Of a stretch of 64,000 nucleotides of DNA, positions 15,819 through 31,551 are shown piece by piece. Position 1 is the stretch's first letter; the number at the start of each line of letters is the position of its first letter. The translations under genes were made by a program, and so were the position numbers. Under the pieces are notes generated by a model. It searched no databases. It was not told the DNA's origin and saw only the letters and a program-made list of their open reading frames with translations. The stretch is from Natronococcus occultus SP4 (GTDB lineage Archaea > Halobacteriota > Halobacteria > Halobacteriales > Natrialbaceae): assembly GCF_000328685.1 (NCBI RefSeq), contig NC_019974.1:487001-551000 (forward strand). Reading direction: 5' to 3'.

Positions 15819-18800
15819 ATGGATTCGACTTCCGAGGCGGACGCGGCGCTCCGCCGTCGGATACGACAGCAGGAAGTCGTCGCCGACCTCGGTCAGCAAG
15901 CGCTCGAGACGGACGATCTCGACCGGTTACTACGCGATGCGGTGGTCGCCGTCGCCGAGACCCTCACGGTCGAGTACGCGACGGTTCTCGAGCTGCGTTC
16001 CGAGGACGACGCGCTCGCGCTCAGACAGGGCGTCGGCTGGCGGGAGGGGGTGATCGGCTCGGCGACGGTTCCCGTCGAGACGTCCTCGCAGGCGGGGCAC
16101 GCGCCGTTCTCGGCGGAACCGGTCGTCGTCGATGATCTCCGGTGCGAGGAGCAGTTTTTCGCCGCCGAGCTGCACGCCGATCGCGACGTCGGCGGCGGTA
16201 TCAGCGTCGTCATCGGTTCGGCCGAGGAGCCGTGGGGCGTGCTGGAAGCGCACGCGACCGAGGAGCGGGAGTTCGTCCGCCACGATGCGGAGTTCCTCGA
16301 GCGCGTCGCGGACGTCCTGGCGGCGGCGATCGACCGCGAGGAACGCCGGACCGAACTCGAGGAGATCCATGGGCGGATCTCGGACGCGTTTTTCGCGCTC
16401 GACGAGGACTGGACGTTCACCTACCTCAACGAGCGGGCCCACGAGCTGATCAACCCGGAGAGTCGAGAGCTCGTCGGCAGGAACGTCTGGGAGGCGTTCT
16501 CCGCGGCGACCGAGCGCGAGTTCAAACCGAAGTACGAGCGTGCGATGACCGACGAGGAGGCGGTCACGTTCGAGGAGTACTACCCGGAACCGCTGGACAG
16601 CTGGTTCGAGGTGCGGGCCTACCCCTCCGAGACGGGGCTGTCAGTGTACTTCCGGGACGTTACCGAGCGCAAGGAGCGCGAACGAAAACTCGAGGAGGCG
16701 AGGCGGCGCTACCGGACGCTGGTCGAGCACTTCCCGAACGGTGCCGTCGCGCTCGTCGACGAGGAGCTCCGGTACGTCACCTTCGGCGGGACGCCGAGCG
16801 GGGAGGTCGACGTCGCGCGGGAAGATCTCGAGGGTGAACGACTGTACGAAGCGCTCCCGGCGGAGCTAGCGGAGCTCGTCGGACCCCGCTACGAGCGCGC
16901 CCTCGAGGGCGACCCGTCGACGTTCGAGGCGACGATCGGCGACAGGACCTACCAGTTTCACTTCGTCCCGGTTCGCGACGACGACGGAGCGGTCGTCGCC
17001 GCGATGGGTCTCTCCCAGGACATCACCCAGCGAGTCGGGATCGAGCGTCGGCTCGAGGAGAGCGAGCAGCGGTACCGAACGCTCGCGGAGAACTTCCCGA
17101 ACGGCGTCGTCGCGCTGTTCGACGACAACCTCGAGTTCACGCTGGTAGCGGGACGCGCGTTCGAGGACCTCCCGATGGAAGCCGACGAGCTCGAGGGACG
17201 ACACGTCCGGGAGATCGGCGACGGTTCCGTCGCCGACGCGCTGGAGCCGAACCTGCAGGCGACGCTCGAGGGAGAGGAGAGCACGGTCGAACTCGAGTAC
17301 GCGGATCGGAGCTGGCGGGTGCATACGGTTCCGGTAACTGACGAGGACGGAGCCGTCGTCGTCGGGCTGGCGATGGCCCAGGACGTCACCGAGCAGACGG
17401 AACGCGCGCGGTACCTCCAGGACGCGAAATCTCAGCTCGAGGCCGCGACCGACGCCGGTGCGGTCGGTACCTGGGAGTGGCACGTCCAAGAGGATCGGTT
17501 CGTCGCTGGTCCTTCGTTCGCCCGCCAGTTTGGGGTCGACCCCGACGCAGCCCGGGAGGGCGTCTCGCTCGAGGCGTTCGTCTCCTCGATCCACGAGGAC
17601 GACCGCGAGCGGATCGAACGCAAGATCGAGGCAGCCGTCGAGAGCTGCGGCGAGTACGAGGCCGAGTACCGCGTCCGAAACGCTGACGGTGAACTCCGGT
17701 GGGTCGTGGCCCGCGGCCACGTCGAGTGCGACGCCGACGGGACGGCGATCACGTTCCCAGGCGCGCTGACCGATATCACGGAACGGAAGCGGGCCGAGCG
17801 GAAGCTCCAAAAGCAACGGGAGCATCTCGAGACACTGTTCGAGGTGTTGCCCGTCGGCGTCGTCGTCGCGGAGCCGGACGGGCGGCTGGTCGAGGCCAAC
17901 GACGCCGCCGCGGAGATCTGGGGCGGCGACGTCTTCGACGCCGAAAGCGTCGCCGACTACGAGCGCTACGACGGCTGGTGGGCCGACACCGGCGAGCCGA
18001 TCGATCCCGGTGAGTGGACGATGAGCCGCGTCCTCGAGGGCGAGACCGTCCTCGAACCGGACGTCGTCGAGATCGAGACGGCTGACGGGGATCGACGCAC
18101 GGTGATGATCCACGGGATGCCGATCAGAAACGAGGCCGGCGAGGTCGTCCGCGGCGTCCTCACACAGACCGACGTCACCGAACGACGGGAGTACCGCCGC
18201 AAGCTCGAGGAGAGCGAGCAGCGGTACCGAACGCTCGCGGAGAACTTCCCGAACGGGGTCGTTGCACTGTTCGACGACGACCTGCGGTACAGGGCCGCCG
18301 GCGGGACCCTCGTCACCGAGCTCGGTATCGACCGGGAGAGCGCGGTCGGGAAGACGATCTACGAGCGGTATCCCGACGAGCTCGTCGAGACGGTCGAACC
18401 ACATTTCGAGGCTGCGCTCGAGGGCGAGGAGACCACCTTCGAGGTGACCTACGCCGGACGGGAGCTGCGGGCTCACACTATCCCCGTCCGAACGACGGGC
18501 TCGAGCCGGAGAGGGATGCTCGTCGTGCAGGACGTGACCGAGCGCAAGGAGTACCAGCGCAAGCTCGAGGCCTCGAACGAGCGATTAGAGCAGTTCGCCT
18601 ACGCCGCCAGCCACGACCTCCAGGAGCCCCTGCGGATGATCACGAGCTACCTCGGGCTCATCGAGGAGCGGTACGCCGACGCCCTCGACGAGGACGGCGA
18701 AGAGTTCCTGGAGTTTGCCGTCGACGGCGCCGAGCGGATGCGCGAGATGATCGACGGGCTGCTGGAGTACTCTCGCGTCGAGACCCAGGGCGAACCGTTC

Positions 18801-19253
18801 GAGCCGATCGAGCTGGACGCCGTCCTCGAGGACGTCCTCGCGGATCTGCAGCTGCGGATCGAGGAGAGCGACGCCGAGATCACGACCGAGTCGCTACCGC
18901 GCATCGAGGGCGACGGGGGCCAGCTCCGGCAGGTGTTCCAGAACCTGCTGGCGAACGCGATCACCTACAGCGGCGACGACCCCCCGCGGATTCACGTCGA
19001 AGCCGAACGAGCCGGCTCCGGGTGGCGGATCGCCGTCCACGACGAGGGGATCGGAATCGAGCCCGACGAGCAGGACCAGGTCTTCGAGGTGTTCCAGCGG
19101 CTCCACAGCCACGAGGAGTACGGCGGAACGGGGATCGGGCTGGCGCTGTGTCGGCGCATCGTCGAGCGCCACGGCGGCGAGATCACGGTCGACTCCGAGC
19201 CCGGTGAGGGCTCGACGTTCACGATCCGCCTACCGGAGGAGCGCGACCGGTAG
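15819..19253 (+). CDS. Multi-PAS sensor histidine kinase (paralogue 1)
   Basis: This 1144-residue soluble kinase without membrane helices has a GAF domain (about 20-170), six PAS domains (about 180-290, 295-410, 415-530, 545-665, 670-790, 800-905), HisKA (about 915-985, phosphoacceptor His in YAASHDLQEPLR) and HATPase_c (about 1010-1144, with NLLANAI, DEGIGI and GGTGIGLALC). Two PAS units share RYRTLAENFPNGVVALFDD, an internal duplication. It is intracellular, so it senses a cytoplasmic or redox/light-type signal; no cognate regulator is adjacent. A paralogue lies inverted at 21428-24124. It opens MDSTSEADAAL from an ATG about 30 nt after a weak TATA. Confidence 0.92.
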   Translation: MDSTSEADAALRRRIRQQEVVADLGQQALETDDLDRLLRDAVVAVAETLTVEYATVLELRSEDDALALRQGVGWREGVIGSATVPVETSSQAGHAPFSAEPVVVDDLRCEEQFFAAELHADRDVGGGISVVIGSAEEPWGVLEAHATEEREFVRHDAEFLERVADVLAAAIDREERRTELEEIHGRISDAFFALDEDWTFTYLNERAHELINPESRELVGRNVWEAFSAATEREFKPKYERAMTDEEAVTFEEYYPEPLDSWFEVRAYPSETGLSVYFRDVTERKERERKLEEARRRYRTLVEHFPNGAVALVDEELRYVTFGGTPSGEVDVAREDLEGERLYEALPAELAELVGPRYERALEGDPSTFEATIGDRTYQFHFVPVRDDDGAVVAAMGLSQDITQRVGIERRLEESEQRYRTLAENFPNGVVALFDDNLEFTLVAGRAFEDLPMEADELEGRHVREIGDGSVADALEPNLQATLEGEESTVELEYADRSWRVHTVPVTDEDGAVVVGLAMAQDVTEQTERARYLQDAKSQLEAATDAGAVGTWEWHVQEDRFVAGPSFARQFGVDPDAAREGVSLEAFVSSIHEDDRERIERKIEAAVESCGEYEAEYRVRNADGELRWVVARGHVECDADGTAITFPGALTDITERKRAERKLQKQREHLETLFEVLPVGVVVAEPDGRLVEANDAAAEIWGGDVFDAESVADYERYDGWWADTGEPIDPGEWTMSRVLEGETVLEPDVVEIETADGDRRTVMIHGMPIRNEAGEVVRGVLTQTDVTERREYRRKLEESEQRYRTLAENFPNGVVALFDDDLRYRAAGGTLVTELGIDRESAVGKTIYERYPDELVETVEPHFEAALEGEETTFEVTYAGRELRAHTIPVRTTGSSRRGMLVVQDVTERKEYQRKLEASNERLEQFAYAASHDLQEPLRMITSYLGLIEERYADALDEDGEEFLEFAVDGAERMREMIDGLLEYSRVETQGEPFEPIELDAVLEDVLADLQLRIEESDAEITTESLPRIEGDGGQLRQVFQNLLANAITYSGDDPPRIHVEAERAGSGWRIAVHDEGIGIEPDEQDQVFEVFQRLHSHEEYGGTGIGLALCRRIVERHGGEITVDSEPGEGSTFTIRLPEERDR
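18720..18802 (+). repeat. 83-bp inverted repeat, copy A (in histidine kinase 1)
   Basis: This stretch covers the end of HisKA and following linker, coding from VDGAERMREMIDGLLEYSR to the GEPFE block. It is identical over 83 bp, in inverse orientation, to 21882-21964 inside the second kinase. Surrounding sequence is similar but diverged. Confidence 0.85.
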
Positions 19254-19257
19254 CCGA

Positions 19258-20070
19258 CTACGACCGTCCGTACCGCTGTGCGTGGTCGGGGCAGAACTCG
19301 GGTTCACGGAGCTGGGCCGCGATCAGGTCCTCGTGGTAGTGGGCGTTGAAGAGCCGACACCCCTCCCGCTCGCAGAAGGCCTCGCCCGTCTCGAGGACGT
19401 GGTACGCCTGCAGGGCGTACCCCTTCAGGGCGTCTGTCGTTCGGGGGTCGTCCTCGATCAGGAAGTCGCCCTCGACGCGGTTCTCGAGGACTTCCCGGGG
19501 CGGAACGTCGCCCGACAGCAGCGAGTGGCGCTGTTTCTCCTTGTAGTAGGCCTCGGGCTTCGCGGGGGCCTCGTAGAGCCCGGGCACCGAGAGCAGCGCC
19601 GGCTGGCCGAGGACGGTCACACGCTTGTGCCAGCGCCCGTCGTGGTCACCCCAGGTGCCGATCGCCCGATCGAGGAGTGCGACGTGTAGCGTCTCGAGTC
19701 CTCGCTCCTCGGGCGGGAGCGCGCTGTTTAACGCGCGCTGGACCTGCCGGCCGTCGTAGAGGACACCTCCCTCGCGCTCGGGGTTCTCGAGGGCGCGTTC
19801 CTCGTATCGGATCGTTCCCAGCATCGTGTTCCCGGTCTCGCGGTCGTACGGCGAGCGGACCCGCGCCTCGGCGAACCGTTCGGCGAGCTCGTCGGTCCGG
19901 TGGACGTCGAGGAACCGATCTCGGACCGAGACCTCCGCTTCGACGCGGTCCGCGAGCCAGGCCGCGATCGCGTCCGCGTCGACGGTTCCACCGTCCTCGT
20001 GTGGCGGTTCTGACCCCTCTCCGTCGCCGCCTCTCGCGGGCGCCCGATAGATGATCGCTCGATCGACCAT
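19258..20070 (-). CDS. DUF6775-family putative metallopeptidase
   Basis: This 270-residue protein matches my memory of the archaeal DUF6775 family: LHVALLDRAIGTW, RWHKRVTVLGQPALLSVPG, LYEAPAKPEAYY and, near the C-terminus, the Cys/His cluster FCEREGCRLFNAHYHEDL then FCPDHAQRYG. Those Cys and His could bind zinc. No HExxH is present, so peptidase activity is only the family's putative label. Convergent with histidine kinase 1 with a 4-bp gap. Confidence 0.7.
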   Translation of the reverse strand: MVDRAIIYRAPARGGDGEGSEPPHEDGGTVDADAIAAWLADRVEAEVSVRDRFLDVHRTDELAERFAEARVRSPYDRETGNTMLGTIRYEERALENPEREGGVLYDGRQVQRALNSALPPEERGLETLHVALLDRAIGTWGDHDGRWHKRVTVLGQPALLSVPGLYEAPAKPEAYYKEKQRHSLLSGDVPPREVLENRVEGDFLIEDDPRTTDALKGYALQAYHVLETGEAFCEREGCRLFNAHYHEDLIAAQLREPEFCPDHAQRYGRS

Positions 20071-20127
20071 GTATTACCTAGTCGTACCACGGAGTGAATC
20101 AGTTACGGTCCCGCGGTCGCCGACCGA

Positions 20128-20135
20128 TTTATATT
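20128..20135 (+). promoter_or_regulatory. TATA box of the 20162 gene
   Basis: TTTATATT ends 27 nt before the ATG, the distance expected for a leaderless haloarchaeal transcript starting at or next to the start codon. Confidence 0.6.
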
Positions 20136-20161
20136 GCCGTCGGTCGTTCACTTCTACAAAC

Positions 20162-20446
20162 ATGTTTCCGCCGGTACTCTCGAACGAGTCGATCCTCACC
20201 GACGAGATGAACCCGCTCACGCGGGCGTACCACGACGCGGTCGTCTACGACGAGGTCGACGCCGAGGACCCCCTCTACGAGGGGCCGCTGGTGATCTACG
20301 CCAACGGCTGGCTCGAGCTCGAGGGGAACCGACTGCTCTCGCCGAGCGCGGTCCACCACGTCGATATCTACGACGACGAGCGTCCGCCTGCGGCAGACGA
20401 CGACCGCGACGACGATCGGCGAACTGGACGGTCCGGCCCCCGGTAG
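20162..20446 (+). CDS. Conserved short haloarchaeal protein of unknown function
   Basis: This 94-residue protein begins MFPPVLSNESILTDEM and has a compact middle (DPLYEGPLVIYANGWLELEG, a possible beta hairpin) and a charged Asp/Arg tail. No family is recognised. The start at 20162 is favoured over in-frame upstream codons because the strong TATA box at 20128-20135 would put the transcript start at this ATG. Confidence 0.65.
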   Translation: MFPPVLSNESILTDEMNPLTRAYHDAVVYDEVDAEDPLYEGPLVIYANGWLELEGNRLLSPSAVHHVDIYDDERPPAADDDRDDDRRTGRSGPR

Positions 20447-20469
20447 TCGCCCCGGGTGTCGGCTCCGAG

Positions 20470-21372
20470 TCACCCCTCCAGAAACGACGGCGTCGTCGGC
20501 TCTTCTTGCTCTGCCTCCCGCCAGGTGTGCTCGGGCTCCCAGCCTAGTTCCGCTCGAGCTTTCGTTGTCGCAAACGCCGCGTCCTCGCCCTCAAGGGTGC
20601 AGTTCGGGGGCAGGTCGTCGTAGACGTCCTCGATCGCCGCCGCTGTAGGTCGGCCGAGGTAGTTCTCCGCCGCGACCGCGAGGTAGGCCTCGTGACCCTC
20701 GCGGTCGGCCGTGAGCGCGGCGTCGACCAGCGAAACCAGATCCCGGACGTCGACGTACGACCAGAAGTTGCCGCTCCCCTGATCCCCGGGTGCGGTCGTT
20801 TCGGGGTCGAACGCCTCTCTGACTCGGGCGAGCTGTTGGCTGCCGGGGTAGCTCACCCACGCGGGACGCAGCGACGTTACCGGCACGTCGAACACCCGGA
20901 CCGTGCGCTCGGCGATCACCTCGCCGACGAGCTTCGAGGTTCCGTAGGGATCCTCCGGGCGTTGCGGGTGGGCCTCGTCGATCGGCAGGTAATCGGGCAG
21001 GGAGGGGGTCGCCGCGAACGGCATCCCGTAGGTGCTCTCGCTGGAGGTCCAGATCACCTCCGCGTTCGTCCGTCCGGCGGCCTCGAGGACGTGGTAGGTG
21101 CTCAGGACGTTCGTCTCGAAGGTCTCGCCGCCCGCACGGATCCCCATCGCCGGGATCCCGGCGCAGTGGACGACGGCGTCGGGATCGGGATCGCGGAGCA
21201 GCTCCCTGGCGACGCCCTGGTCGGTCAGATCCCCCGCGAGAAAGGTCGCGTGCTCCCGCTTGCCGGGCGGGCGTTCGAGGTCGACGCCGACGACCTCGTG
21301 GCCCGCGCTCGCGAGCCCATCGACGATCCAGCTGCCGATCCCACCGGTCGCACCGGTGACGACGACGTGCAT
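20470..21372 (-). CDS. NAD(P)-dependent epimerase/dehydratase (extended SDR)
   Basis: This 300-residue extended short-chain dehydrogenase has the NAD-binding motif VVTGATGGIGSWIV at residues 4-17, the acidic D32-region (VVGVDLERPP), the strand VVHCAGIPA, the catalytic Ser in TSSESTYG and the YGTSK pair (Tyr and Lys). It probably acts on a nucleotide sugar or related substrate. I chose ATG 21372 (MHVVVTGATG); the same frame stays open upstream into the kinase gene but only as a shadow. It lies 55 bp from histidine kinase 2 on the same strand. Confidence 0.9.
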   Translation of the reverse strand: MHVVVTGATGGIGSWIVDGLASAGHEVVGVDLERPPGKREHATFLAGDLTDQGVARELLRDPDPDAVVHCAGIPAMGIRAGGETFETNVLSTYHVLEAAGRTNAEVIWTSSESTYGMPFAATPSLPDYLPIDEAHPQRPEDPYGTSKLVGEVIAERTVRVFDVPVTSLRPAWVSYPGSQQLARVREAFDPETTAPGDQGSGNFWSYVDVRDLVSLVDAALTADREGHEAYLAVAAENYLGRPTAAAIEDVYDDLPPNCTLEGEDAAFATTKARAELGWEPEHTWREAEQEEPTTPSFLEG

Positions 21373-21427
21373 GCTCGAGTCGACTCGATCCCGGGGAAAA
21401 ACCGTGGGGGTTCCCGCCCGACCCCGC

Positions 21428-24124
21428 TCACTCCGGTTCGTCGGCCGCGGGGAGCGTAATCGTAAACGTCGAGCCTTCGCCGGGCTCGGAGTCGACGGCG
21501 ATCTCGCCGTCGTGGCGCTCGACGATGCGCTGACACAGCGCCAGCCCGATTCCCGTCCCCTCGTACTCCTCGGCGGAGTGCAGGCGGTCGAACACCTGGA
21601 AGACCCGGTGCTGATCCTCCGGATCGATCCCGATCCCCTCGTCGCTGACCGAGATCGTCCACTCGGCGCCCCGTCGGTCCGCGTCGACGTGTACTCGCGG
21701 CGGTTTTTCGCCGCTGTAGGTGATCGCGTTCTCGAGTAGGTTCTGAAGCACCTGCCGGAGCTGGCTCCCGTCGCCGCGGACCCGCGGGAGCGTCCCGGTC
21801 GTGATCTCGGCGCCGCTCTCCTCGATCCGCAGCTGCAGATCCGCGAGGACGTCCTCAAGAACGTCCTCGAGGGCGACGGGTTCGAACGGTTCGCCCTGGG
21901 TCTCGACGCGAGAGTACTCCAGCAGCCCGTCGATCATCTCGCGCATCCGCTCGGCGCCGTCGACCGCGTACGCGATGAACTCCTCGCCGTCCTCGTCGAG
22001 CGCCTCGGCGTACCGCTCCTCGATGAGTCCGAGGTAGCTGGTGACCATCCGCAGGGGTTCCTGCAGGTCGTGGCTGGCGGCGTAGGCGAACTGTTCGAGG
22101 CGTTCGTTCGAGGCCTCCAGCTGGCGCCGGCGCTCCTTGAGCCGCTCCTCCAGTCGCTTCCGGTCGGTGATATCGGCGATGATCCCCTCCACGTCGATGA
22201 CGGCCCCCTCCTCGTCGAAGAGTGCGCGGCCACGGTCCCTGACCCACCGCACGTCGCCGTCGGCCGTCTCGATGCGGTAGGTCTCCGAGAAGGGCTCTCC
22301 CTTCGCCGCCTGCTGGTTGACGGTCTCCCAGAGCCGTTCGCGATCGCTCTCGACCATCACATCCTCGCCCCAGCTGAGCTCGCCGCTCTCGAGGACGTCG
22401 GGATCGTACCCGGTTAGAGCCTCGCAGGCGTCGCTGACGAACGTCATGGGCCAGCCGCGCTCGGTCTTGCAGCGGTAGACCATCCCGGGGACGTTTTCGA
22501 TCAGCGTCGAGAGCCGGCGCTCGCGCATTCGGAGCTGGCGCTCTCGCTCCTTCCGCTCGGTGATATCCTGGGCGATGGTCATCCCGCCGAAGACGTCGCC
22601 GTCGCCGTCGGTGATCGGCACGACGTGGACGACCCACTCCCGGTCGGCGTACTCGAGCTCGACCTCTCGGGACTCGCCCCCGAGGGCGGCCCGGAAGGCT
22701 CCCTCGAGGCTCCGGCCGATCCCGTCGGGCCAGACCTCCTGGACGGGCTGGCCCTCGATCTCGGTTGCCGACACCGGCAGCGTATCGAACGTTCGTCCCG
22801 CCGCGAGCGTGTACCGCAGGTCGTCGTCGAACAGCGTCACGATCCCGTTGGGGACGTTCTCGGCGAGCGTTCGGTACTGCTGCTGGGACTGTCTGAGCCG
22901 GCGCTCGCGTCGCCTGCGGTCGGTGATGTCGCGGGCGACGGCGATCATGTAGCCGTCGTCGACTCCGACGTAGCTGACGTTGACTTCCGCCGGGTAGGTC
23001 GTTCCGTCCTTTCGCTCGTGGACCCCCTCGATCGTCACGGCGTCCTCGAGTGCGACGTCCTCGACGTGGTCGCGCCACGCCTCGACGTCGGCGAACCGTC
23101 GTTCGATGTCGGGGACCGCGAGCGCGAGCAGCTCGTCCCGGTCGTAGCCGAGCCGGCGACAGGCCGTCTCGTTTGCGTCGAGGATCCGTCCCGTCTCCGA
23201 CTCGATCACCAGAACGACGTCGTTCGAGTGATCCAGCAGCGTCCGGAACAGCTCGAGCTCCCGCTCGCGTTCCTTGCGGTCGGTGACGTCCCGGAAGTAT
23301 ACCGACAGCCCCGTCTCGGAGGGGTAGGCCCGCACCTCGAACCAGCTGTCCAGCGGCTCCGGGTAGTACTCCTCGAACGTGACCGTCTCCGTCTCGGTCA
23401 TCGCACGCTCGTACTTCGGTTTGAACTGCCGCTCGAGGGCGGACGAGAACGTCTCCCAGACGTTCCTGCCGACGAGCTCCCGATCGTCGGGGTTGATCAG
23501 CTCGTGGGCTCGCTCGTTGAGGTAGGTAAACTCCCAGTCCTCGTCGAGCGCGAAAAATGCGTCCGAGATCCGACCGTAGGTGTCCTCGAACTGCCGACGG
23601 CTCCGTCGGTTCTCGATCGCCGTCCCGAGGACGGCTGCGACGCTTTCGACGAAGCTGGCGTCGTGTGGGATGAATGACCGGGCGTCGGTCGCGTACGCCC
23701 CCAGCACGCCCCAGGGCTCCTCAGCGGAACCGATCCGGACGCCGATCCCGCCGACGACGCCGTGATCGGCGAACAGCTCGGGGCTGTGGACGCGCTCCTC
23801 GCCACGGACGTCCTCGACGAGGAACGGCTCCTTGCACCGAAGCACCTCGCCGACGAGCGTGTCGGCGCTCGCCGGAACCGTCGCCGAACCGACCAGTCCC
23901 GCACGCCAGCCGGCGCCCGCCCGGAGCAACGCCTCGTCGGCGGTGCGAAACTCGAGGACGGCCGCGCGCTCGACCGCAAGCCCCTCGGTGAGGGCGTCCG
24001 CCGCTTCGTCGAGCAGCGCCTCGAGATCGTCCGTCTCGAGCGCCCGTTGGCCGAGATCGGCGACGACCTCCTGTCGCCGTGTTCGCGTACAGACGTCGGG
24101 ACTGTTCGACGAGGACGACTCCAT
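21428..24124 (-). CDS. Multi-PAS sensor histidine kinase (paralogue 2)
   Basis: This 898-residue soluble kinase has a GAF domain (about 18-175), four PAS domains (about 180-292, 297-415, 420-535, 545-665), HisKA (about 672-745, His in YAASHDLQEPLR) and HATPase_c (about 770-898, with NLLENAI, DEGIGI and GTGIGLALC). It is a paralogue of the kinase at 15819-19253: the GAF, first PAS (LNERAHELINP, YYPEPLDSWFEVRAYPSE) and kinase core align closely, while the middle PAS domains differ in number and type. It is read in the opposite direction. A TATA box at 24152-24158 suggests a leaderless transcript from the ATG. Confidence 0.92.
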   Translation of the reverse strand: MESSSSNSPDVCTRTRRQEVVADLGQRALETDDLEALLDEAADALTEGLAVERAAVLEFRTADEALLRAGAGWRAGLVGSATVPASADTLVGEVLRCKEPFLVEDVRGEERVHSPELFADHGVVGGIGVRIGSAEEPWGVLGAYATDARSFIPHDASFVESVAAVLGTAIENRRSRRQFEDTYGRISDAFFALDEDWEFTYLNERAHELINPDDRELVGRNVWETFSSALERQFKPKYERAMTETETVTFEEYYPEPLDSWFEVRAYPSETGLSVYFRDVTDRKERERELELFRTLLDHSNDVVLVIESETGRILDANETACRRLGYDRDELLALAVPDIERRFADVEAWRDHVEDVALEDAVTIEGVHERKDGTTYPAEVNVSYVGVDDGYMIAVARDITDRRRRERRLRQSQQQYRTLAENVPNGIVTLFDDDLRYTLAAGRTFDTLPVSATEIEGQPVQEVWPDGIGRSLEGAFRAALGGESREVELEYADREWVVHVVPITDGDGDVFGGMTIAQDITERKERERQLRMRERRLSTLIENVPGMVYRCKTERGWPMTFVSDACEALTGYDPDVLESGELSWGEDVMVESDRERLWETVNQQAAKGEPFSETYRIETADGDVRWVRDRGRALFDEEGAVIDVEGIIADITDRKRLEERLKERRRQLEASNERLEQFAYAASHDLQEPLRMVTSYLGLIEERYAEALDEDGEEFIAYAVDGAERMREMIDGLLEYSRVETQGEPFEPVALEDVLEDVLADLQLRIEESGAEITTGTLPRVRGDGSQLRQVLQNLLENAITYSGEKPPRVHVDADRRGAEWTISVSDEGIGIDPEDQHRVFQVFDRLHSAEEYEGTGIGLALCQRIVERHDGEIAVDSEPGEGSTFTITLPAADEPE
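21882..21964 (-). repeat. 83-bp inverted repeat, copy B (in histidine kinase 2)
   Basis: This is the reverse complement of 18720-18802 with no mismatch over 83 bp. It encodes the same VDGAERMREMIDGLLEYSR-containing stretch in kinase 2. Identity stops abruptly at both ends (third-codon changes). Confidence 0.85.
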
Positions 24125-25249: not shown

Positions 25250-25639
25250 ATGTATCGCCGCGCGTTCCTGGCGCTCGCCGCCGCGGTGTCGGTGTCGGGC
25301 TGTCTCGAGTACTTCACCGAGGACGCCGAGGAGATCACCGAACCCGGCGACGTCGAGATCGTCTGGGACGACCTCGTGCGCGACGACCCCGGAACCGACG
25401 AGGAGCGCGTCTACGTCTGGGGAGTCGTCAGGAACGCGGGCGAGCGGACCCTCTCGTACGTCGAGATCCGGGTCACGTTTTTCGACGCCGAGGGCGAGGA
25501 GCTAGAGAGCGTCATCGAGAACGTCGAGGAGAACGTCGCCGAGGACGAGGAGTGGCCGTTCGACGCCGAGTTCCCCCACTTCGGCGAGGCCGCCGCCGCG
25601 GTCGCAGACTACGAACTCGAGCCGGCGACGGGTGTCTGA
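25250..25639 (+). CDS. FxLYD-type lipoprotein
   Basis: This is a 129-residue exported lipoprotein: [18 protein letters not shown] is a short signal with a lipobox (Cys18). The mature part is a single beta-sandwich with [20 protein letters not shown] and the F-x-D-x-E-G-E turn typical of FxLYD domains. Function unknown; such domains are common in haloarchaeal lipoproteins. A related gene is at 42013. Confidence 0.75.
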
Positions 25640-25708
25640 CGTGTCCGTTCCGACAGCGAGCCGACGACCGCCCCCGACGTGCCGCACCCACCGACACCAC
25701 ACGCAGCC

Positions 25709-27229
25709 ATGACCGATCAGGACGAGGGCGTCACCACGCTCGCCAGGCAGGGCAGCATCACGTTCGTCGGGAACGTGATCAACGGGGTGCTGGGCTTCGC
25801 GATCGTCATGTTGATGACGCGGTTCGTCAGCCCCTCTGTCTACGGGCTGTTCGTCCTGGCGACGTCGGTCATCCTCTTCATGCAGGTGTTCGCGAACCTC
25901 GGGCTCCCACTCGCGATCGACTACTTCGTCCCCCAGCACCTCGACGCCGGGGACCGCGGGAAGGCCAAGGGCGTGATCGTCCAGGTGACCGCGACCGTCC
26001 TCGTGACCTCGTCGCTCGTCGCGCTCGTGCTCGCGCTCGGCGCCGGCGCGCTGGCCGAGTTCTTCCAGGAGCCGCCGCTGCGGGTCGGACTTCTCCTGCT
26101 TTCGGTGACGATTCCGATGCTGGCGATCTACAACGTCTTGCTGACCTCCTACTACAGCATCAAGAAGCTCCAGTACCGGGTGATCATGCGCGACCTCGTG
26201 CGGCCGATCGTCCGTTTTGCCGTCACCGCGGGGCTCCTGCTGGCCGGGTTCGGGCTGCTCGGGCTGGTCGCCGGCTACATCGTCGGCCTGTTCGTCGCGA
26301 TCACGGTCGGCGCCGCCGTCTTCACCTACAAGGCCTGGGACCTCCTGACGACGGAGATCGAACTCGTCGCCACCGGCCCGCTCGTGCGGTACTCGGTACC
26401 GCTGGCGATGACCAGCGTCGTCTTCGTCCTGATGGGCCACGTCGACTACTTCGTGCTCGGCTTCTTCCTCGACTCCGACGACGTCGGGATCTATCGAGTC
26501 GGCTACATGCTGGGATCGGGGCTGATGATCATCTTCAACTCGCTGTCGCCCGTGTTCAAACCCCTGATCGCCGAGAGCCGGGACGATATCGAGCTGGTCG
26601 AACAGCGGTTCCGGATCATGGCCCGCTGGATCGCCGGTATCACCCTGCCGGTCGCCATCTTCCTCTCGCTTGGCGCGAGCTCCTACCTCGCCGTGCTGTA
26701 CACGCCCCAGTACGCCGAGGCCGCGGCGGTCGTCGCCCTGCTGGCAGCCGCCTTCCTGTTCAACGTCACCTTCGGTGGCCCCGACGGCTCCCTGCTGCAG
26801 GGCCTTGGCTACTCGCGGTTCGTCTTCGCCAACACGCTCGTGCTTTTCGGGGCGAACCTGGTGGTCTCGTTCACGCTCGTTCCGTTCCTCGGCATGGAGG
26901 GCGCCGCGATCGGCTCGGCGACCGCCCTGTTTCTCGTCGGCGGGCTCACCCTCGTCGAGATCTACTCCCTCGACGGAATCCATCCCTTCACCCGGGACTT
27001 CGCCAAGGTCGTCGGCGCCGGCCTCCCGGCGACCGTCGCCGGCGCACCCGTCGTCTACGTCCTCGAGTCGGATTACGTGATCGCCGCCGTCCTCCCGATC
27101 GTCGTCGTCGGCACCTACGCAGGGACGCTCGTGCTCACCGACGCGTTTACCGACGACGACGCCCAGATGGCCGCGGCGTTCAGCCCGACGCTTCGCAAGT
27201 GGCTCCCCGTCGGCGGCTCCGGCCAGTGA
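25709..27229 (+). CDS. Oligosaccharide flippase (Wzx/MVF family)
   Basis: This 506-residue membrane protein has about 14 predicted helices. The N-terminal block ARQGSITFVGNVINGVLGFA and the LMGHVDYFVLGFFLDSDDVG segment are typical of the polysaccharide-export/flippase branch of the MOP superfamily. It probably moves lipid-linked sugars across the membrane for glycosylation or surface polymers, but no glycosyltransferases are adjacent. ATG 25709 (MTDQDEGVTTLARQG) is chosen because the first helix starts shortly after. It ends 2 bp before the convergent MATE gene. Confidence 0.85.
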   Translation: MTDQDEGVTTLARQGSITFVGNVINGVLGFAIVMLMTRFVSPSVYGLFVLATSVILFMQVFANLGLPLAIDYFVPQHLDAGDRGKAKGVIVQVTATVLVTSSLVALVLALGAGALAEFFQEPPLRVGLLLLSVTIPMLAIYNVLLTSYYSIKKLQYRVIMRDLVRPIVRFAVTAGLLLAGFGLLGLVAGYIVGLFVAITVGAAVFTYKAWDLLTTEIELVATGPLVRYSVPLAMTSVVFVLMGHVDYFVLGFFLDSDDVGIYRVGYMLGSGLMIIFNSLSPVFKPLIAESRDDIELVEQRFRIMARWIAGITLPVAIFLSLGASSYLAVLYTPQYAEAAAVVALLAAAFLFNVTFGGPDGSLLQGLGYSRFVFANTLVLFGANLVVSFTLVPFLGMEGAAIGSATALFLVGGLTLVEIYSLDGIHPFTRDFAKVVGAGLPATVAGAPVVYVLESDYVIAAVLPIVVVGTYAGTLVLTDAFTDDDAQMAAAFSPTLRKWLPVGGSGQ

Positions 27230-27231
27230 GG

Positions 27232-28716
27232 TCAGTCGACGGCATCGGGCTCGTCTCCCGCGCCGGACTCCGCCCCGGGTCCACGGGCGTCGCCGTCCTC
27301 GTCGATGATCCCCTCGGTCCAGGTCCCCAGCCGGAACCAGCCGACGGCGACGACGAACGAGGCGACCATCCCGAACGAGAACGCCCACCAGATCCCCGCG
27401 ACGCCGAGGTCGATCGCGGCGACAGTCGGGATCGTCACGCCGATGAACGGCACCGTCACGGCCGTGAAGGCAAGCACCAGCGCGACCGGAACCCGGAAGA
27501 TCCACCGCGAGAGAAAGGACAGCACCATCGCCTCGCGGGTGTTGCCGGCGCCGCGGAACGCGCCTTGCAGCACCATCACGCCCGCGAACAACGCCCAGAA
27601 CGGCGCCATAATTCGCAAGAAGAGAACGCCCTCGGCGATCACGGCTGGATCGGCGACGAAGATTCCCATTGCCTGGGCCGGGAAGGCGACGAGGACGGCG
27701 GCGACCACGAAGATCAACAGCATCGTCCCCGCCGTGGCGATCCGCGCGACGGCTGCGGCTCGGTCGGGCGTCCTCGCGCCGAGGTTCTGGCCGACGCCGG
27801 TCGCCGTCGCGTTACCGACCGCGCCCGCGACGGCCCACGTGACCGACATGTACCGCACGCCGATCCCGTAGGCTGCGGTCGGCGCGGCCCCGAAACGGGC
27901 GACGAAGCCGGCCATCGCGACCGACGCGAAGCTGCGCGCCCAGCCGTCGATCGTCGCCGGGTAGCCGACGTCGATCAGCCGGCGCTGGACCGAGAGGTCG
28001 GGCGCGAGGTCGCCGATCCGGAGCCGAACGCCGAACCGTCCGTCGAGCAGGATGTAGATTCCGACGACGGCCGCGAACGCGCGGGCGATGAACGTCGCGA
28101 TCGCCGCGCCGCGGGTTCCCAGCTCGGGGAACGGCCCCCAGCCGAGGATGAGGAACGGATCGAGGACGACGTTCAGTCCGGCGGAGACGAGCACCAGCCA
28201 CATCGCGGTCTTGGTGTCGCCGGCGCCCTGCAGCGACGACCGGAACGCGAAGAACAGAAACGTCAGGGGAAGGGCGAGAAAGATCACCTCGATGTAGGCC
28301 AGTGCCTCGACGAAGACCTGATCACGCGCGCCGATCAACCACAGTAGGGGTCGACGGAAGTAGAGGCCGACGGCGGCGAGGACGCTCGAAACCGCGAGCG
28401 CGAGCAGGATCGTCTGGGCGACGACCCGGTCTGCCATTCGGTCGTCGTCGGCGCCGACGTACTGGGAGACCAACGCGATCGTCGCCGCCGTCAGTCCCAT
28501 CGCCGTCGAGACGAACATCCACGACAGGGGAAACATCAGCGAGACGGCCGCGACGGCCTCGCTGCTCACGCGACCGACCCAGAACATATCCGCGAGATTG
28601 TAGAAGGTCTGCAGAAGGTTGCCGAGCACGAGCGGCCAGGCTAACTGGAGGAGCTTCGGGGGGATCGATCCCGTCGTCATGTCGACGCGTTTGCGTTCTG
28701 GCTCGGACTCGGACAC
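27232..28716 (-). CDS. MATE family efflux transporter
   Basis: This 494-residue protein has 12 predicted helices in two homologous halves, each opening with a typical MATE block (LAWPLVLGNLLQTFYNLAD; VGYPATIDGWARSFASVAM). MATE proteins export cationic drugs or metabolites using Na+ or H+ gradients. I chose the GTG at 28716 (MSESEPERKRVD); the ATG at 28680 (MTTGSIPPKLL, 482 residues) is the alternative. It is divergent from topA and convergent with the flippase. Confidence 0.9.
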   Translation of the reverse strand: MSESEPERKRVDMTTGSIPPKLLQLAWPLVLGNLLQTFYNLADMFWVGRVSSEAVAAVSLMFPLSWMFVSTAMGLTAATIALVSQYVGADDDRMADRVVAQTILLALAVSSVLAAVGLYFRRPLLWLIGARDQVFVEALAYIEVIFLALPLTFLFFAFRSSLQGAGDTKTAMWLVLVSAGLNVVLDPFLILGWGPFPELGTRGAAIATFIARAFAAVVGIYILLDGRFGVRLRIGDLAPDLSVQRRLIDVGYPATIDGWARSFASVAMAGFVARFGAAPTAAYGIGVRYMSVTWAVAGAVGNATATGVGQNLGARTPDRAAAVARIATAGTMLLIFVVAAVLVAFPAQAMGIFVADPAVIAEGVLFLRIMAPFWALFAGVMVLQGAFRGAGNTREAMVLSFLSRWIFRVPVALVLAFTAVTVPFIGVTIPTVAAIDLGVAGIWWAFSFGMVASFVVAVGWFRLGTWTEGIIDEDGDARGPGAESGAGDEPDAVD

Positions 28717-29022
28717 GGCGTTGCAGTGGAGGTTCTCTCCGGGCGGACCAAAAGGGCTCGACTCCCCGGTTCCGTTGCCGACTTTCGGGCCCCGTCCCGA
28801 CCGAACCGGACGCGCCGACACGGTTCGCGCTCGGCGCAGTCGACGACACCTCGTGCACGCGCGAGCGCAAACCGTGCGCGAGCGCAACGCCCGCGTAACG
28901 CACGCACACCCGCGCTGTCTGCGGGTTTTGCCGAAAGCGTTATCAGAGGCTCGATCGTACCGGGCGACCATGACCGCAGTTTTCGCTCCGGACCTGCCGC
29001 CCGAGCCGCGAGGTGATCGACG
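28717..29022. other. Intergenic region between MATE gene and topA
   Basis: About 306 bp with divergent promoters but no convincing long gene. The region near 28931-28945 (CGAAAGCGTTATCAG) could be a weak promoter for topA. The only open frame of note is the 20-codon upstream ORF at 28970. No RNA gene or repeat was seen. Confidence 0.5.
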
Positions 29023-29032
29023 GTGGAACTGA
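28970..29032 (+). CDS. Possible upstream ORF overlapping topA start
   Basis: This is a 20-codon frame (MTAVFAPDLPPEPRGDRRWN) whose stop lies 10 bases inside topA in another frame. Its ATG is placed where a leaderless transcript could begin. It may be a translated leader that couples to topA; there is no protein-level evidence. Confidence 0.3.
   Translation: MTAVFAPDLPPEPRGDRRWN
29010..29018 (+). promoter_or_regulatory. Shine-Dalgarno of topA
   Basis: GAGGTGATC is a near-perfect anti-16S match ending 4 nt before the GTG start at 29023. It fixes that GTG as the start and lies inside the short upstream ORF. Confidence 0.7.
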
Positions 29033-31551
29033 TCATCACCGAGAAGGACAACGCCGCGCGACGGATCGCCGACATCCTTTCCGGCGGTAGCTATGATTCG
29101 ACGCGCGAGAACGGTGTCAACGTCTACGAGTGGGGCGGCAAGCGCTGCGTGGGTCTGTCGGGCCACGTCGTCGGGGTCGACTTCCCCTCGGAGTACTCCG
29201 ACTGGCGGGACGTCGAGCCCGTCGAGCTCATCGACGCGGATATCGAGAAGACCGCGACGAAAGAAAACATCGTCGCCACGCTGCGGATCCTCGCCCGCCG
29301 GGCCGAACGGGTTGCGATCGCGACCGACTACGACCGCGAGGGCGAACTCATCGGGAAGGAGGCCTACGACATCGTCCGCGAGGTCGACGAGGACGTCCCT
29401 ATCCGTCGGGTGCGCTTTTCCTCGATCACCGAAAACGAGGTCAAAAACGCCTTCGACGAGCCCGACGAGCTGGACTTCGATCTGGCCGCGGCGGGCGAGG
29501 CCCGCCAGATCATCGACCTGATCTGGGGCGCCGCGCTCACCCGATTCCTCTCGCTGTCGGCGGGCCAGCTCGGCAACGACTTCATCTCGGTCGGACGGGT
29601 CCAGTCGCCGACGCTGAAGCTGATCGTCGACCGCGAGCGGGAGATCCAGGCGTTCGATCCGGAGACGTACTGGGAGCTTTTTGCCGACCTCCGACAGGCG
29701 GAGACGACGTTCGAGGCCCAGTACTTCTACCGCGACGAGGACGACAACGAGGCCGAGCGCGTCTGGAAGGAGGCCCGCGCCGACGAGGTCTACGAGACCC
29801 TGTCGGGTCGCAACGCCGCGACGGTCGTCGACGTCAATCGCCGTACCCGGACCGACGCGCCGCCCGCGCCGTTTAACACGACCCAGTTCATCCGCGCGGC
29901 CAGCGCGATCGGCTACTCGGCCAAGCGGGCGATGTCGATCGCCGAGGACCTCTACACCGCCGGCTACATTACCTATCCGCGGACCGACAACACCGTCTAC
30001 CCCGACGACCTCGATCCCGAGGAGCTGCTCGAGGAGTTCGTCGGCCACTCGACGCTCGGCGACGCGGCCGACTCGCTGCTCGAGGCCGACGAGATCCGGG
30101 CCACCGAAGGTGACGAGGAGACGACCGACCACCCGCCGATCCACCCGACGGGCGAGATCCCGACCCGGGGCGGCGACGTCAGCGACGACGAGTGGGAGAT
30201 CTACGAGCTGGTCGTGCGCCGGTTCTACGCGACCGTCGCCGATCCCGCGAAGTGGGAACACCTCAAGGTCGTCGCCGAGGTCGACGACGTCCGCTTGAAG
30301 GCAAACGGCAAGCGCCTCGTCGAGCCGGGCTACCACGACGTCTACCCGTACTTCAACACGACCGAGAACTACGTCCCCGACGTCGAGACCGGCGAGGAGC
30401 TTTCGATCGAGGACGTCGAGCTCGAGGAGAAGGAGACACAGCCGCCCCGTCGGTACGGCCAGTCGCGTCTCATCGAGACCATGGAGGATCTCGGCCTGGG
30501 GACAAAAAGCACACGGCACAACACTATTGAAAAATTATACGACCGGGGCTACATCGAGAGCGATCCGCCCCGTCCGACCAAGCTGGCGATGGCGGTCGTC
30601 GACGCCGCCGAGAGCTACGCCGACCGGGTCGTCAGCGAGGAGATGACGGCCCAGCTGGAACAGGATATGGACGCCATCGCCTCCGGCGAGGCCGGTCTCG
30701 AGGACGTCACCGACGAATCTCGAGAGATGCTCGAGGAGATCTTCGCGAACCTGGCCGAGTCCCGGGAGGAGATCGGCGACCACCTCCGGAAGTCGCTGAA
30801 AGACGACAAGCGCCTCGGTCCCTGTCCGGAGTGTGGCGAGGACTTGCTCGTCCGTCAGAGCCGCCACGGCTCCTACTTCATCGGCTGTGACGGCTACCCG
30901 GACTGCGAGAACACGCTGCCGCTGCCCTCGACGGGCAAGCCGCTGATCATGGACGGCGAGTGCGACGAGCACGGGCTCAACGAGGTGAAGATGCTCGCCG
31001 GCCGCCAGACGTTCGTCCACGGCTGTCCGCTGTGTACAGCCGACGAGGCGGGTGAGGGCGAGATCCTGGGCGACTGTCCGGACTGTGGGGAGGGCGCGAC
31101 GTCTCCGACGTCGCGAGGCGAAGGCGGTGAAACCGCCGAAGCGGACGGGGAACTCGTAATCAAGACTCTCCAGAGCGGCTCCCGGCTGGTCGGCTGTACG
31201 CGCTATCCGGACTGCGAGTACTCGCTGCCGCTACCCCGGCGCGGCGAGATCGAAGTCACCGACGAGCGCTGCGAAGAACACGACCTACCCGAACTGCTCG
31301 TCCACAGCGGCGACGAGCCCTGGGAGCTCGGCTGTCCGATCTGTAACTACCGCGAGTTCCAGGCCCGGGAGGCAGACAGCGGTTCGGACCTCGAGAGCCT
31401 CGACGGCGTCGGCGCCAAGACCGCCGAGAAGCTCGTCGACGCGGGCATCGAGAGCCTCGAGGACCTGACCGACGCCGACCCCGACGCGGTCGCCGAGGAC
31501 GTCGACGGTGTCAGCGCCGATCGGGTCCGCAGCTGGCAGGCCGAGGCGTAG
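29023..31551 (+). CDS. topA: DNA topoisomerase I (type IA)
   Basis: This 842-residue type IA topoisomerase relaxes negative supercoils. The TOPRIM domain is N-terminal (LIITEKDNAARRIADIL; IATDYDREGE with the metal-binding acids). The active-site Tyr is residue 318 in GYITYPRTDN, the same place as in E. coli TopA. The C-terminal third has several zinc ribbons (CPECG, CDGYPDC, CPLC, CPDCG, CTRYPDC, CPIC). A helix-hairpin-helix ends the protein (SLDGVGAKTAEKLVDAGIE). Starts at GTG 29023 with a strong Shine-Dalgarno. No intein is present. A low-complexity insert coded by a twin hairpin splits two ribbons near residues 692-708. Confidence 0.95.
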   Translation: MELIITEKDNAARRIADILSGGSYDSTRENGVNVYEWGGKRCVGLSGHVVGVDFPSEYSDWRDVEPVELIDADIEKTATKENIVATLRILARRAERVAIATDYDREGELIGKEAYDIVREVDEDVPIRRVRFSSITENEVKNAFDEPDELDFDLAAAGEARQIIDLIWGAALTRFLSLSAGQLGNDFISVGRVQSPTLKLIVDREREIQAFDPETYWELFADLRQAETTFEAQYFYRDEDDNEAERVWKEARADEVYETLSGRNAATVVDVNRRTRTDAPPAPFNTTQFIRAASAIGYSAKRAMSIAEDLYTAGYITYPRTDNTVYPDDLDPEELLEEFVGHSTLGDAADSLLEADEIRATEGDEETTDHPPIHPTGEIPTRGGDVSDDEWEIYELVVRRFYATVADPAKWEHLKVVAEVDDVRLKANGKRLVEPGYHDVYPYFNTTENYVPDVETGEELSIEDVELEEKETQPPRRYGQSRLIETMEDLGLGTKSTRHNTIEKLYDRGYIESDPPRPTKLAMAVVDAAESYADRVVSEEMTAQLEQDMDAIASGEAGLEDVTDESREMLEEIFANLAESREEIGDHLRKSLKDDKRLGPCPECGEDLLVRQSRHGSYFIGCDGYPDCENTLPLPSTGKPLIMDGECDEHGLNEVKMLAGRQTFVHGCPLCTADEAGEGEILGDCPDCGEGATSPTSRGEGGETAEADGELVIKTLQSGSRLVGCTRYPDCEYSLPLPRRGEIEVTDERCEEHDLPELLVHSGDEPWELGCPICNYREFQAREADSGSDLESLDGVGAKTAEKLVDAGIESLEDLTDADPDAVAEDVDGVSADRVRSWQAEA
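31095..31137. repeat. Twin hairpin element inside topA
   Basis: Two adjacent perfect palindromes: CGCGACGTC-TCC-GACGTCGCG (9-bp stem, 31095-31115) and GGCGGT-GAA-ACCGCC (6-bp stem, 31123-31137). They are in frame and encode a Ser/Gly/Glu-rich stretch (ATSPTSRGEGGETAEADG) between two zinc ribbons. Confidence 0.65.

Follow-up and report, generated by a model that had tools for sequence, protein, structure and literature searches.

The locus

The window analysed here is a stretch of 64,000 nucleotides from the 4.31-Mb genome of Natronococcus occultus SP4 (G000:C1:487001–551000), and positions are counted from its first letter. It holds two convergent genes about 2.2 kb apart, gene A (15819–19253, plus strand, 1,144 amino acids) and gene B (21428–24124, minus strand, 898 amino acids), each recognized from its open reading frame (ORF), its translation and Pfam matches to GAF, PAS, HisKA and HATPase_c. 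The presence of HisKA (residues 923–989 of A and 676–742 of B) and HATPase_c (residues 1031–1141 and 784–894, respectively) identifies both products as histidine kinases, with GAF and PAS domains in their sensor parts. From its place in the translation and from what is known of HisKA, we take the codon at 18612–18614 (plus strand) to encode the likely phospho-acceptor histidine of A. Among the genomes examined, only two carry both A and B: that of N. occultus and that of the congener G002.

Three further ORFs lie between the kinases: a DUF7001/DUF6775 gene (19258–20070, minus strand, Pfam), a short ORF that has no Pfam match (20051–20446, plus strand) and a gene for an NAD-dependent epimerase (20470–21363, minus strand, Pfam). 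The short ORF overlaps the divergent DUF7001 gene at the latter's listed start, and a counterpart occupies the same place in all seven congener loci compared. Elsewhere in the window, two long ORFs on opposite strands, 25552–28347 (plus) and 27232–30519 (minus), overlap by about 1.1 kb; the minus-strand ORF encodes MatE domains, and for the plus-strand ORF Pfam gave no match at E 0.001.

An exact inverted tract in the kinase cores

Pairwise comparison confirmed the report, in a first-pass annotation made from the sequence alone, that the two facing PAS kinases share 83 identical base pairs in inverse orientation: the tract lies at 18720–18802 (plus strand) in A and at 21882–21964 (minus strand) in B, with one mismatch flanking each end. 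The copies are in the same codon phase, correspond to residues 968–995 of A and 721–748 of B, and cover in both genes the end of HisKA and part of the linker that precedes HATPase_c; their outer ends span 3,245 bp. The tract is the longest exact run of a wider inverted match between the kinase cores (684 nt, 86%; 18542–19225, plus strand, in A and 21459–22142, minus strand, in B), and core identity between A and B is 84.5% across 690 aligned nucleotides. A second exact core run, of 43 bp, is found at 18828–18870 (plus strand) in A and, after conversion of its offset to window coordinates, at 21814–21856 (minus strand) in B.

The sensor parts share an exact run of 53 bp (16590–16642, plus strand, in A and 23304–23356, minus strand, in B, both converted from offsets), and the A copy sits inside an inverted match of 338 nt at 89% (16357–16694 and 23252–23589). 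We considered this match as proof of copying from B into A and dropped it. Over 16428–16691, the A gene of N. occultus is closest to its own B (0.89); it also matches the A genes of G004, G001 and G008 better (0.81–0.83) than the A gene of G002 does (0.73–0.75), so the G002/G003 lineage may be the odd one.

The adjoining PAS region of A, 16692–17003, matches A of G001, G004, G005 and G008 (0.75–0.78) but fails to match A of G002 and G003 (0.52–0.53), and over the same interval the A sequence of G002 and G003 is nearer to B (0.68–0.70); in that lineage, one PAS domain appears to have been swapped. Further along, at 17829–18548, the alignment leaves B with nothing opposite two stretches of the sensor part of A, of which the second (18189–18548) is also missing from A of G001, G004, G005 and G008. 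Judging from these alignments, the sensor arrays seem to gain and lose units the size of a PAS domain.

Family-wide and identity-matched controls

Because the tract region encodes a kinase motif that is common to the family, each genome holds many matches to the 83-mer. At least 20 were found in N. occultus, including A and B, the best of the other 18 reaching 92% (a lower bound, as scoring covered 40 of the 113 first-look candidates), and at least 12 to at least 20 per genome were found across the nine Natronococcus genomes searched (again lower bounds, with 40 candidates scored per genome). The first 37 bp of the tract recur exactly in 3 of 17 other N. occultus cores, and its codons TCT and CTG CTG are also present, singly, in other paralogues of that genome. 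Some of the identity, mostly in those first 37 bp, comes from amino-acid constraint and shared codon choice.

The full length of the run was compared with several chance expectations. Free shuffling of codon columns produced a run of at least 83 bp in 1 of 20,000 replicates, and a shuffle that kept the amino-acid identity pattern, swapping codon pairs only among positions identical in amino acid, did so in 45 of 20,000. Among all 171 pairs of the 19 kinase cores of N. occultus, the A/B run ranks first (83 bp; next 62, median 26), as does the A/B run of G002 among the 153 within-genome core pairs there. This core set comprises 19 of the 20 N. occultus matches to the 83-mer (L088, which lacks a core match, was dropped) and, from the other genomes, all 18 matches of G002, all 16 of G003, 17 of 18 of G004, 17 of 19 of G008 and 16 of 17 of G001, the weakest being dropped; none was taken from G005, G006 or G007, and L095 (G006) and L089–L093 stand outside the separate analysis. 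Across the six Natronococcus genomes, runs of at least 83 bp occur in 2 of 836 within-genome pairs, both of them A/B pairs (N. occultus and G002), and in 2 of 4,417 cross-genome core pairs. These cross-genome runs, like the 45 hits of the shuffle that kept amino-acid identity, count against conversion.

No other core pair of the N. occultus genome is as similar as A and B (identity 0.853); this alone lengthens exact runs and makes an identity-matched control necessary. In the bin of 83–86% identity (29 pairs), A/B of N. occultus shows the longest run (83 bp; next 64, median 35), and in the bin of 80–83% (64 pairs), A/B of G002 does so (92 bp; next 62, median 29.5). Over four bins that cover 80–93% identity (132 pairs), no pair besides these two reaches 83 bp. 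Separately, two unlinked kinase cores of G008 (L161 and L164) have an exact run of 72 bp in common, a candidate case of conversion between distant paralogues.

Paralogues compared with orthologues

Inside the tract, A and B of N. occultus differ at 0 of 83 positions (1 of 84 if the last codon is completed), whereas each differs from its orthologue in G002 at about a tenth of positions (9 of 84 for A and 10 of 84 for B). Outside the tract the relation is reversed for A, with 104 differences in 600 positions between the two N. occultus genes and 82 in 603 between the A genes of N. occultus and G002. Four tract codons common to A and B of N. occultus (the second CTG, TCT, GAG and GAA) occur in none of eight other A/B sequences.

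Variable sites in the four sequences were classed as concerted if the genes of one genome agree against those of the other, orthologous if orthologues agree, and crossed if the crossed pairs agree. Of the classed sites in the tract, 6 are concerted, 0 orthologous and 1 crossed (6 versus 1, p = 0.125), and the whole core (18549–19250) has 19, 30 and 6, respectively, with concerted sites in excess of crossed ones (p = 0.0146; 16 versus 6 at third positions, p = 0.0525). Along the core, sites classed as concerted and as orthologous fall into blocks (runs tests, p ~1e-5 and 2e-5), with p = 0.054 when third positions are taken alone.

The first-pass annotation had read the sharp edges of the identity as a sign of recent gene conversion, for which it proposed a comparison of synonymous sites as a check. 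With all polymorphic codons, a Sawyer-type run test for A/B of N. occultus gave p values of 0.0002–0.017 (0.002–0.10 after Bonferroni correction); with silent sites alone it was not significant in any of four sets (p = 0.087, 0.15, 0.21 and 0.195). In the four-sequence set, the best silent-site run of this pair falls outside the tract, and in the ten-sequence set the pair is outside the best eight pairs listed. The corresponding pair in G002 gave p values of 0.0002–0.0026 in every set and of 0.0004–0.0026 for silent sites alone, all before correction. Its longest exact run over the whole gene measures 93 bp and lies at the start of the core, over the phospho-acceptor box; a second, of 56 bp, lies in the region of the N. 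occultus tract and carries variants of its own.

A tree of the cores groups the A cores of six genomes without B (99/90) and pairs B of N. occultus with B of G002 (99/97), values for which the bootstrap is not fully settled; by this tree, A and B fall into separate lineages.

Alternative explanations

The first-pass annotation had proposed that recombination at the 83-bp copies could flip the intervening 3.2 kb and exchange the ATPase domains of the two kinases. Read as an invertible switch, this would be a working form of variation in which each sensor array changes over to the linker and HATPase_c of the other kinase. The geometry would allow it: the repeat is exact and inverted, a wider homology of 684 nt surrounds it and, as that annotation held, the matching codon phase leaves both junction products in frame. 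We nevertheless consider a working switch very improbable. A fixed flip would leave the middle genes turned round relative to their flanks, and no flipped orientation was seen at the seven congener loci with A (G001, G002, G003, G004, G005, G007 and G008), of which only G002, the one that has B, offers a direct comparison; the six without B could not flip in this way. (At the G008 locus, which has no epimerase match, the DUF7001 gene and the short ORF served to establish orientation, and G006 has no orthologue of the A locus among the matches listed.) Linkage downstream of the tract is likewise parental: over 18803–19250, the comparison of N. occultus with G002 yields 24 orthologous sites, 8 concerted and 4 crossed, whereas an odd number of fixed flips would make crossed sites dominant. 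A search of the N. occultus genome for two recombinase families found 15 integrase (PF00589) and 2 resolvase (PF00239) matches, none of them within the window (C1:487001–551000). Nor would the exchanged parts be output domains, as they had been called, because the region with the phospho-acceptor is located 5′ of the tract and would stay put; a flip would exchange only the linker and HATPase_c, not the phospho-acceptor histidine. Partner choice of histidine kinases rests mainly on the HisKA helices, and with the H-box of A outside the exchanged part, it would change little on a flip. A rare flip within a population would be compatible with these observations.

Two other accounts dispense with a switch. 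One needs no transfer of sequence at all: amino-acid constraint, GC-rich codon bias and the common descent of kinase cores would give the run by chance. The 18 other N. occultus places (at least) that match the 83-mer, the similar abundance in every Natronococcus genome searched, the recurrence of the first 37 bp in other cores and the non-significant silent-site tests in the N. occultus pair all speak for it, and we leave it a small chance of being right. Against it stand the shuffle that preserves amino acids, the first rank of the A/B run in both genomes that have the two genes, the excess of both pairs over their identity-matched controls, and the variants that A and B of N. occultus alone have in common. 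The other account makes the core of B a young inverted copy of that of A, or the reverse. That A and B are the most similar core pair of their genome would fit, but the core tree separates them, and outside the tract the A gene of N. occultus differs more from its own B than from A of G002; we regard a recent duplication as the most improbable of the explanations considered.

Probable recurrent short gene conversion

Taken together, the shared codons, the site patterns, the run tests, the exact runs in G002 and the core tree favour short conversion over both recent duplication and constraint alone, and recurrent short gene conversion between A and B is, in our judgement, a likely explanation of the tract and the best one. 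The part of the earlier conversion claim that stands rests on paralogues that are closer than orthologues in the tract, on the blocks of concerted sites, on runs that exceed identity-matched controls and on the separate A/B runs of G002; the silent sites, by themselves, do not carry it for N. occultus. As far as sequence comparison can tell, conversion in more than one lineage (N. occultus and G002) is favoured.

A plausible course of events is as follows. A and B belong to the large histidine-kinase family of the genus, and their cores are alike enough that they would occasionally pair by homology, whereby one gene acquires a short stretch, of tens to about 100 bp, from the other with no crossover. 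The exact 83-bp tract at the border of HisKA and linker, and perhaps the adjoining 43-bp run, would be traces of such copying in the N. occultus lineage; in G002 the traces would be the run of 93 bp around the phospho-acceptor histidine and that of 56 bp. We infer that the process at A/B is gene conversion and that the nearness of the two genes favours it; pairing may take place within one chromosome or between copies, and conversion machinery of the haloarchaeal kind presumably acts between these paralogues.

Discussion

The tract is most likely a fairly ordinary case of a known kind of event, gene conversion. As in other instances of ectopic conversion and concerted evolution, there are short tracts in which paralogues are closer to each other than to their orthologues, in more than one lineage and with gene order unchanged. 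What differs here is that the partners are convergent histidine kinases with differing sensor arrays in a haloarchaeon, that the tracts are very short and that the silent-site signal of the N. occultus pair is weak. In Haloferax volcanii, according to PMC11276520, efficient intermolecular gene conversion equalizes genome copies and involves at least 16 proteins; the assay described there concerns alleles on the copies of one chromosome, unlike the diverged paralogues A and B. Conservative site-specific inversion and phase variation, the subject of PMC5903667, depend on dedicated recombinases, and its authors report no sign of inversion in their six archaeal datasets. Like the locus here, such systems have a segment bounded by inverted repeats; no flipped form was seen at A/B. 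Neighbouring histidine-kinase paralogues in archaea, as here, also appear in a passage of PMC5847659; the copies it concerns are nearly identical and in tandem, whereas A and B have diverged and face each other. Among the titles listed in searches of an open-licence library, none was on gene conversion between archaeal histidine kinases, which is no proof of absence.

The locus is an example, from two species, of archaeal signalling paralogues that have diverged and yet carry conversion tracts of very short length. It also shows why an extended identity of two kinase cores should first be set against the rest of the family, with divergence matched, and only then be read as an inversion switch. 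A further idea, which we think unlikely to be right, is that conversion at A/B is kept by selection, so that the phospho-transfer helices and the linker are re-equalized while the sensor arrays diverge, and two different sensors can thereby signal to one common partner or join in mixed dimers. Selection of this kind, if real, would be relevant to how partners shared by kinases are retained or lost when the sensors differ.
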